From: Rhodococcus oxybenzonivorans
GTDB taxonomy: Bacteria; Actinomycetota; Actinomycetes; Mycobacteriales; Mycobacteriaceae
Direction of reading: 5' to 3'
Length of the DNA: 64,000 nt
Assembly: GCF_003130705.1 (NCBI RefSeq)
Contig: NZ_CP021354.1
Span: 496,001-560,000, forward strand
Below the pieces are notes generated by a model. That model ran no database searches. It saw only the letters and a list, made by a program, of their open reading frames with translations, and was not told where the DNA came from. The position numbers and the translations under genes were made by a program. This document shows, one piece after another, positions 1,103 to 2,781 of the stretch. The stretch's first letter is position 1; every line of letters begins with the position of its first letter.

Positions 1103-1345
1103 TCACGCCAGACCATGGAGGTGTTCGGCGATCATGCGCTGCGCCGTTTCCGCGGTATCGGTTTCGCTGAGCAGGGCGTGCATCGCGGCCCCGTCGACGA
1201 GTGCGTGCAGTCGCATCGCCTCGGCATCGATGTCGCGCTTCGGTGCGACATACCCGTGCGCGGCAAGCCCGGCCAGGATCGATGCGCATCCGGCGCGTAG
1301 TTCACGCGACGCCGTCGGCCCGGAACCCTCCGAAAGCGGCTGACT
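1103..1345 (-). pseudogene. 3' remnant of a TetR/AcrR-family regulator
   Basis: Read on the minus strand, the 81 codons from 1345 to the stop at 1103 give a C-terminal helix pair typical of TetR ligand-binding domains: ELRAGCASILAGL, then EAMRLHALVDGAAMHALLSE, then AQRMIAEHLHGLA. An in-frame TAA lies just upstream (1348-1346), and no helix-turn-helix half can be found further upstream, where the retron-like unit lies. The gene has therefore lost its DNA-binding half. The break is within about 20 bases of the first paired repeat of the retron-like RNA. It could instead be a short free-standing ORF, but it has no start codon at the right place. Confidence 0.6.
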
Positions 1346-1363
1346 TTATGGCATTCTCACGAG

Positions 1364-1537
1364 GTGCGACGGTGCAGGGGTGAGAGTGGGGTGGCCGGTA
1401 CGCCGGCTGCGACCACGTCAGGGGTAACCCCTGGCTCGGCATTGTTCACCGGAGGCACCGTCCGACGCACGGCCGCACGCTCCGCGTGCTTCGGCGCGCC
1501 GCAGACGACAGGTATCGGTCGCCTCTCACCGTCGCAC
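1364..1537 (+). ncRNA. Candidate retron msr-msd non-coding RNA
   Basis: An 11-base segment at 1364-1374 is perfectly complementary to 1527-1537, as the a1/a2 repeats of a retron RNA are. Between them lie two short hairpins (stem 1394-1398/1403-1407, loop TACG; stem 1419-1424/1428-1433, loop TAA). A longer fold follows: 1452-1460 pairs with 1516-1525 around an inner hairpin at 1475-1489. The right-hand repeat ends two bases before the ATG of the reverse transcriptase. The order a1, small hairpins, long hairpin, a2, RT is the known retron layout. Ends, priming guanosine and transcription are inferred, not seen. Confidence 0.5.
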
Positions 1538-1539
1538 GC

Positions 1540-2781
1540 ATGACACGGCGTCGCGCCCTGTCCTCGGCTGTGGCGCGTCGCCTGGCCGCGGTGGCGACGT
1601 CGGGTTCCTGGACGCGAGCCGCGATCGCCCAGCGGTTCGAGGAGATCGGCACCCCGGACGCCGACCGGATCGCAACACGATTGTTCGACCTTCTGCCCAC
1701 TCCTCCGGTGGAGGGGGTCGACAGCGTGTACCGGTTGCTGTCGGAACTGCCGCACATCGACGAGCCGGCTCCGGTGGTAGAGCAACCTGACCACGAGTGG
1801 AGGTTCGACGTTCCGAAGTGGACCCACACGGTCGCGGTGGCGCAGGCGGTCGGTCTCACCCCGGCGGAATTGGACTGGTTCGCCGATCCGGGTGAGTGGC
1901 TGCGGAACAAGGCGCCTACCCTGCAGCACTACCGCTACCGAATCCGGTCGGACCACCGATTGCTGGAAGCACCCAAGGAACGGCTCCGCGAGGTGCAGCG
2001 CCGAATCCTGACGGCTCTCCTCGATCGAGTACCTCCGCATGCCGCCGCGCACGGCTTCGTGCGCGGGCGCAGCGTTCACACGTTCGCTGCACCGCATGCG
2101 GGTCGAGATATGGTGGTGCGGATCGATCTGCGCGCGTTCTTTCCGTCGATTTCCCAGGCTCGGGTGCGGGCGGTTTTCGACTCGCTCGGATATCCGCCGC
2201 GTGTGTCGCGTGTGCTGACGGGACTCTGCACCACCTCCACTCCACCGGACGTTCTCGCGAGGCTTCCATTCGACACGGCGAGCCGATTACGGGGGTCACA
2301 CCTGCCGCAGGGGGCGCCGACGTCGCCGGCCCTCGCGAATCTCGTCACGTATCGGCTCGATCGACGGCTGACCGGATTGGCGCGGTCATCCCGAGCCGAA
2401 TACACGCGGTACGCCGACGATCTCGCGTTCTCCGGCGTCGACCTCGCGGCGGACCGCCTGATCTCCGCCGTCGGCCGGATCGCGGCGGACGAAGGGTTCT
2501 CGGTACATCCGCGAAAGACGCGGATCATGCGAGCGCACCGACGGCAGCACCTGGCGGGACTCGTGATCAACTCGCACGCGCAGGTCGTCCGCACGGAGTA
2601 CGACCAACTGCGTGCGCTGCTCTTCAACTCGCTGCGCACCGGCCCGGATCTGCAGAACCGGGACGGGCGGTCGCACTTTCGTGAGTACGTCTACGGGCGC
2701 ATCGCCTGGATCGGCGAGTCGAACCCCAACCGCAAGCGTGCGCTGCTCGCCCTCGCCGACCGGATCGAGTGGACGGGGTGA
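1540..2781 (+). CDS. Retron-like reverse transcriptase
   Basis: A protein of 413 residues from the ATG at 1540. An in-frame GTG at 1486 is less likely because it falls inside a hairpin of the RNA candidate. The first 120 or so residues have no domain I recognise. The RT domain then shows HGFVRGRSVHTFAAPH (a variant of the retron NAxxH box), VVRIDLRAFFPSIS (catalytic Asp), LPQGAPTSPALANLV, YTRYADDLAFSG (catalytic YADD) and VHPRKTRIM...LAGLVIN (variant of the VTG box). No maturase or endonuclease domain follows, which argues against a group II intron. Retron RTs reverse-transcribe the adjacent RNA and usually serve anti-phage defence with an effector; none is fused here. Confidence 0.8.
   Translation: MTRRRALSSAVARRLAAVATSGSWTRAAIAQRFEEIGTPDADRIATRLFDLLPTPPVEGVDSVYRLLSELPHIDEPAPVVEQPDHEWRFDVPKWTHTVAVAQAVGLTPAELDWFADPGEWLRNKAPTLQHYRYRIRSDHRLLEAPKERLREVQRRILTALLDRVPPHAAAHGFVRGRSVHTFAAPHAGRDMVVRIDLRAFFPSISQARVRAVFDSLGYPPRVSRVLTGLCTTSTPPDVLARLPFDTASRLRGSHLPQGAPTSPALANLVTYRLDRRLTGLARSSRAEYTRYADDLAFSGVDLAADRLISAVGRIAADEGFSVHPRKTRIMRAHRRQHLAGLVINSHAQVVRTEYDQLRALLFNSLRTGPDLQNRDGRSHFREYVYGRIAWIGESNPNRKRALLALADRIEWTG

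Follow-up and report, generated by a model that had tools for sequence, protein, structure and literature searches.

A probable standalone retron with a conserved structured RNA in Rhodococcus oxybenzonivorans

Overview of the locus

A stretch of 64,000 nucleotides from Rhodococcus oxybenzonivorans (contig NZ_CP021354.1, positions 496,001 to 560,000, forward strand), referred to here as the window, contains a locus that is very probably a standalone retron (probability about 0.92). It consists of a structured non-coding RNA (ncRNA) at approximately 1357-1541 and its own reverse transcriptase (RT) at 1540-2781, probably expressed from one promoter located before a1, the first of two complementary repeats (a1 and a2). 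An initial annotation of the window had proposed a retron at this site, and the proposal is supported by conserved RNA pairing, retron profiles and fold matches. The retron falls into a little-studied, unassigned lineage that is common among relatives and in which no toxin partner was detected. The locus combines an RT of the retron clade that carries the associated motifs with an adjoining ncRNA, in which a1 and a2 are accompanied by an msr region and, after it, a putative msd hairpin. Retron Ec86 (Retron-Eco1) follows the same a1/a2 and msr/msd logic. The individual elements are listed in Table 1.

Table 1. Elements of the predicted retron, in window coordinates
Element	Position	Strand	Remarks
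Leader, possible promoter of the ncRNA (predicted)	1309..1357	+	conserved; TATGGCATTCTCACGAG directly 5' of a1
a1	1364..1383	+	outer 11 bases 1364-1374, inner 1376-1383
Predicted branching (priming) guanosine	1384	+	context GAGA
msr hairpin 1	1386..1416	+	1386-1389/1413-1416; 1391-1398/1403-1410
msr hairpin 2	1417..1435	+	GTCAGGGG-TAA-CCCCTGGC; most conserved element
Predicted msd (template)	1452..1518	+	consensus helices 5 and 6; limits placed after retron architecture
msd stems	1466-1470/1494-1498; 1475-1480/1484-1489	+	first with one mismatch in the window; second apical
msd apical loop TCC	1481..1483	+	predicted copied DNA strand: GGA loop of the GNA type with a C-G closing pair
a2	1519..1537	+	inner 1519-1526, outer 1527-1537
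Retron reverse transcriptase, 413 aa	1540..2781	+	profiles, motifs, predicted structure

Structure and conservation of the non-coding RNA

The 11-base sequences GTGCGACGGTG (1364-1374) and CACCGTCGCAC (1527-1537) are perfect reverse complements of each other, and the right repeat ends two bases before the ATG of the RT gene (1540), both as initially annotated. Perfect inverted repeats of at least 11 bases with arms at least 100 apart occurred in 3 of 1000 dinucleotide-preserving shuffles of 1355-1545. In the minimum-energy fold the repeat is joined to a pairing of 1376-1383 with 1519-1526, of which the consensus of related sequences retains 1378-1383 with 1519-1524. Thus, the repeat is the outer portion of an extended a1/a2 stem that comprises 19 pairs and is interrupted by a single bulged base. 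The fold energy of 1355-1545 is -98 kcal/mol, compared to -86.7 +/- 4.7 for shuffled sequences (z = -2.39, with 4 of 200 shuffles as good). The tetraloop and triloop hairpins described earlier between the repeats are present at 1391-1398/1403-1410 (loop TACG) and 1417-1424/1428-1435 (loop TAA). A longer fold of 1452-1460 with 1516-1525, which had also been claimed, can be drawn in the window but is not conserved, as only 52.4% of cells pair in an alignment of 19 sequences and 144 of 500 shuffles reach this value. In the minimum-energy fold, 1519-1526 is taken up by the a1/a2 stem instead.

This alignment, A2, comprises 19 diverse upstream regions from the same bacterial order, chosen from 38. 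Of the 41 pairs in its consensus, 22 show double-sided (compensatory) changes, and 96.8% of cells are paired. None of 500 shuffles reached this value, and sliding the partner by 1-3 columns reduced pairing to 31-50%. Helices 1 and 2, which represent a1/a2, are paired in 94.7% and 95.5% of cells, with double-sided changes in 12 of 17 pairs. Helices 3-6 (the msr hairpins and the msd) are conserved with double-sided changes in A2 and in a larger alignment, A6. The two msr hairpins behave differently: hairpin 1 varies in sequence and length among relatives, so that the consensus includes only its outer five pairs, and hairpin 2 is paired in 100% of cells in both alignments. Using a simple pattern, hairpins resembling hairpin 2 were found 5' of RT genes in Actinomycetota, Acidobacteriota, Planctomycetota, Verrucomicrobiota, and Gammaproteobacteria.

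G1384 at the 3' end of a1 is invariant in A2 (19/19), and several relatives have GAGC or AAGC as its context. Known contexts of the branching guanosine include TAGC, CAGA, CAGC, GAGC, and ACGC, according to a 2019 review (PMC6868368); the GAGA of the window is comparable to GAGC and CAGA. On the 5' side, the leader matches that of Rhodococcus tibetensis (L002) from about 1309 onwards, with different DNA further to the left, and a TGGCA-type motif precedes a1 in many relatives.

A covariance model, R1, was built from A2. At E <= 0.01 and on the strand of the RT, it finds the RNA in 79 of 80 further upstream regions, which were hand-picked and unused in R1, some coming from close kin of the model rows; the exception is L205, and an extra match in L159 lies on the wrong strand. 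Homologous RT genes thus retain an upstream pairing with compensatory changes. The A6 alignment was fitted to the model and contains 79 distinct rows, one of which is a wrong-strand match. Here, 36 of 41 pairs show double-sided changes and 95.6% of cells are paired. Across 74 sources, among them the window itself and close relatives of the seed sequences, R1 finds the RNA in 41 (E <= 0.01). The 33 misses comprise 24 sources with type XIII-like (L016, L020-L024) or more distant RTs (L026-L043), along with L004, L005, L010, L012, L014, L015, L017, L019, and L100. Several of the latter nine show a1/a2-like pairs and an msr hairpin by simpler means. In the whole genome, R1 has a single match, at the retron locus, with 150 of 7820 candidates scored.

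The reverse transcriptase

The protein contains an RVT_1 domain (67 bits) with YADD at residues 291-294. The best matches among the PADLOC profiles are RT_other (571 bits) and RT_outgroup (535 bits), which cover nearly the full protein including its N-terminal part, followed by RT_XIII (304 bits). In PADLOC, RT_other carries no description and RT_outgroup is labelled 'retron'. All NCBIfam matches are below their cut-offs, with retron models ranking first (best retron model 165 bits, cut-off 235) and the non-retron group II and Drt2 profiles reaching 48 bits (cut-off 300) and 32 bits, respectively.

The AlphaFold model (mean pLDDT confidence 88.3, pTM score 0.66) consists of a helical N-terminal domain at about residues 9-69, a low-confidence linker at 74-85, and an RT fold from about residue 90. 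When PDB entries are ranked by fold similarity, the first 18 places all go to chains of retron complexes, with group II-type RTs appearing from rank 19 and RTs of diversity-generating retroelements (DGRs) from rank 22; for DGRs, the comparison covers the RT fold only. Retron Ec86 is the best PDB match both by sequence (1.2e-28) and by fold (2.5e-19), with 26-27% identity to the window RT in the fold alignment. Ec86 has an effector, as stated in the title of entry 7v9x, whereas none was found linked to the window retron.

Besides YADD, the initial annotation had named the motifs FAAPH and LAG, which are present, and had regarded these variant boxes and the N-terminal part as distinctive. They are not peculiar to this RT, being widespread in its clade. 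In most of the rows nearest to the query in a 26-row alignment, NAxxH gives way to FAAPH or a near form and VTG to LAG; the textbook boxes return towards type XIII-like relatives. The N-terminal part is predicted as a four-helix domain that is weakly common to relatives, with block means of 84-92 over residues 11-70 and a mean of 80.7 for a 77-residue fragment modelled alone. In genus g62, 6 of 7 loci have no start codon before about residue 59.

The window RT shares its N-terminal extension with type XIII retrons, which also provide the next-best typed profile. Type XIII is represented by L020 from Pyxidicoccus and L022 from Acanthopleuribacter (profile, 535-558 bits) and by Myxococcus and Pleionea (tree). 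In a tree of 49 RTs, restricted to retron-like sequences with group II and DGR rows left out, the clade of the query has a support of 100/98 and is separate from the type XIII-like clade (97/91). All seven type XIII-like loci have a common upstream gene, whose open frames span about 560-630 residues and are longer in L021. This gene is missing from the clade of the window RT and occurs only in the type XIII-like group among the compared loci. It (L016, L020-L024, L031) gave one SWIM zinc-finger match just below the cut-off and is a possible effector. The myxobacterial retrons Mx162 and Mx65 resemble the window retron by description, having an extended N-terminal region and a branching guanosine in a CAGC or GAGC context (PMC6868368). 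However, the window msd, predicted at about 67 nt, is much shorter than the 162-nt DNA of Mx162.

The msd loop and the copied DNA strand

The msd loops of 79 aligned RNAs are TCC (47), TGC (20), TTC (8), TAC (1), TGT (1), TGCC (1), and AC (1). In the copied DNA strand, this corresponds to a predicted GNA loop in 76 of 79 cases and a GNNA loop in one. Of the 79 distinct rows, 75 close the loop with a C-G pair. Extraordinary stability and nuclease resistance are described for DNA hairpins that combine a GNA or GNNA loop with two or more G-C pairs, with GCGAAGC melting at 78 C (PMC4686876). The prevalence of the GNA loop suggests selection on the DNA product, and the variable middle letter between two fixed outer letters is the pattern expected from selection on the DNA strand. 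These rows are related and belong to one bacterial order, and more distant members differ (e.g., L006 and L014).

Selection and distribution

Compared with five relatives, the RT shows a ratio of nonsynonymous to synonymous substitution rates (dN/dS) of 0.11-0.20, which indicates that it is kept by purifying selection. In all five, the ncRNA is more identical than the third codon positions of the RT. The closest named relative at the locus is R. tibetensis, with 89% RT identity and 98.9% versus 76.2% identity for the ncRNA and the third positions, respectively. The corresponding ranges for the other four relatives are 83.5-91.4% and 43.8-56.3%.

At E <= 1e-30, the RT was found in 17 of 28 genomes from the genus, in 96 of 301 from the family, and in 91 of 397 from the order; the three samples overlap and include this genome. 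Matches were found in 9 of 72,556 public plasmid records (E <= 1e-30) and in 7 of 50,697 phages (1e-15), giving little sign of mobile carriage in those collections. The plasmid collection includes three Burkholderia replicons (NZ_CP091309.1, NZ_CP091014.1, and NZ_CP101526.1) encoding RTs about 50% identical over residues 90-411. In three genomes of the same genus, the RT gene is split into two adjoining, frameshift-like matches (G004, L049/L062; G005, L050/L061; G013, L059/L063), and these copies are apparently decayed.

The dnaE2-like neighbour

A gene found near the RT in some relatives was named by reading of its sequence, which resembles the DnaE2/ImuC polymerase, and we take it to be a dnaE2-like gene. 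A strong match to it is present in 76 of 80 RT-bearing genomes, chosen out of 176. In 22 of the 80, the RT lies 0.2-2.6 kb downstream of this gene on the same strand, distributed over genera g11 (8), g19 (6), g62 (5), and g17, g44, and g9 (one each). In G102, the two are 4.2 kb apart on different strands. Both Kibdelosporangium loci have the gene near the retron. Examples from several actinobacterial genera with the gene nearby, mostly directly upstream, are L003, L011, L212, L214, L219, L118, and L108, and genomes G128, G066, G037, G084, G100, G151, G115, G162, and others. None of eight Rhodococcus genomes has it near the RT; in this genome, it lies at C1:4176439 and the retron at C1:497540. 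On a tree of 45 RTs, adjacency requires 6 changes, and 156 of 500 shuffled labels are as low. With no more clustering than in the shuffles, the association either arose repeatedly or is old and has been lost many times. Both this neighbourhood and the GNA loop of the copied strand look new.

Proposed mechanism and role

In the proposed mechanism, a1 and a2 would pair and the RT would bind the two msr hairpins. DNA synthesis would start at the 2'-OH of G1384 and proceed leftwards from about 1518, and RNase H would remove the template. The expected product is a branched RNA-DNA molecule (msDNA), with its DNA ending in a very stable hairpin with a GGA loop.

The likeliest role would be that of a phage- or stress-sensing module, with either a gene elsewhere or the RT itself supplying the effector. 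The chance that the retron is a defence system is considered about even, and with no effector linked to it, this role can only be surmised. Retrons of known function are described as defence systems (PMC12548924). An anti-phage retron whose effector is encoded in trans or fused to the RT, with the helical domain at the N terminus as effector or adaptor, is a tentative proposal at slightly below even odds, to which the fair confidence of the predicted N-terminal domain also lends support. It is unlikely, though conceivable, that the locus belongs to a large effector-free lineage, common in the actinobacterial order and also occurring in other phyla, in which a GNA-capped, nuclease-resistant msDNA is the selected product and acts as a sensor, a decoy, or a cofactor of repair or mutagenesis, rather than as the guard of a toxin. 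If the DNA hairpin is what matters, its repeated place behind dnaE2 would arise because msDNA acts in host DNA repair or mutagenesis. A related explanation, in which the hairpin acts in DNA damage or mutagenesis of the host and not in phage defence, draws on the recurrence of this arrangement in more than one lineage, including Kibdelosporangium. It appears rather improbable, since the adjacency is absent in Rhodococcus, shows no excess of clustering on the tree over shuffled labels, and is concentrated in few genera, so that shared ancestry or an insertion hot spot fits as well; moreover, a LexA-like site (at most one mismatch) occurs in only 5 of 129 upstream regions.

That the locus is a decayed or selfish relic without function would agree with the patchy distribution and the split RT genes of some relatives, but is very improbable given the intact RT with its YADD motif, the low dN/dS, and an ncRNA more conserved than third codon positions. 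Even less probable is that the structured RNA upstream accompanies a domesticated RT of a non-retron kind, be it derived from a group II intron, a DGR, or a DRT-like template system. The group II and Drt2 matches and the departures from NAxxH and VTG could be read in this way. However, retron profiles score higher, retron chains lead the fold list ahead of group II and DGR types, and the standard boxes reappear in type XIII-like relatives. The a1/a2 stem, the context of the branching guanosine, and the msr/msd layout also fit retrons, and intron RNA, sought through Rfam only, gave no meaningful match.

Several observations weigh against the retron interpretation or parts of it. Retrons typically have an effector, and no conserved close partner gene was found among the 25 largest groups in the flanks (up to 6 kb) of 49 loci; these groups consist of syntenic groups, dnaE2-like frames, and a set of ABC-type ATPases found in 12 loci at varying distances. 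In some retrons, a clear effector is missing (PMC8867640). Rfam yielded no meaningful match even at E <= 5. R1 found no RNA in L004, L005, L010, L012, and L205, which belong to the same RT clade. The RT might recognize the conserved TNC loop at the RNA level instead of its being selected as DNA, and the stability of the GNA loop rests on the literature because the folding program contains no bonus for it. Finally, the split RT genes suggest that the element is dispensable in places.

In the accessible portions of the literature on retrons in Rhodococcus, mycobacteria, and Actinomycetes, on type XIII, and on orphan retrons, no description of this RNA was found, although the retron classification of Mestre et al. 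2020 may already contain a prediction of it. The RNA model presented here now covers a retron lineage that is widespread in the sampled family and order genomes. Should selection act on the GNA loop as DNA, this would be sequence evidence that evolution keeps the cDNA and not only the RNA. In a lineage with no effector found, the role of msDNA alone becomes directly testable in Rhodococcus. As a speculation, actinobacterial DNA production may benefit from a retron that is compact and G+C-rich. In the tree of the 2019 review, all validated retron RTs are from Gamma- and Deltaproteobacteria (PMC6868368).

Further observations

Next to the retron leader, on the minus strand, lies a C-terminal fragment (1095-1310) that, by reading of its sequence, appears to come from a TetR-type regulator. 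The corresponding protein end in R. tibetensis L002 is separated from the retron by about 1.7 kb of other DNA, and the window lineage therefore seems to have lost the intervening stretch. Three further RVT_1-type RTs or pieces of RTs are located on contig C2 of the genome, at about 238 kb, 509 kb, and 518 kb.
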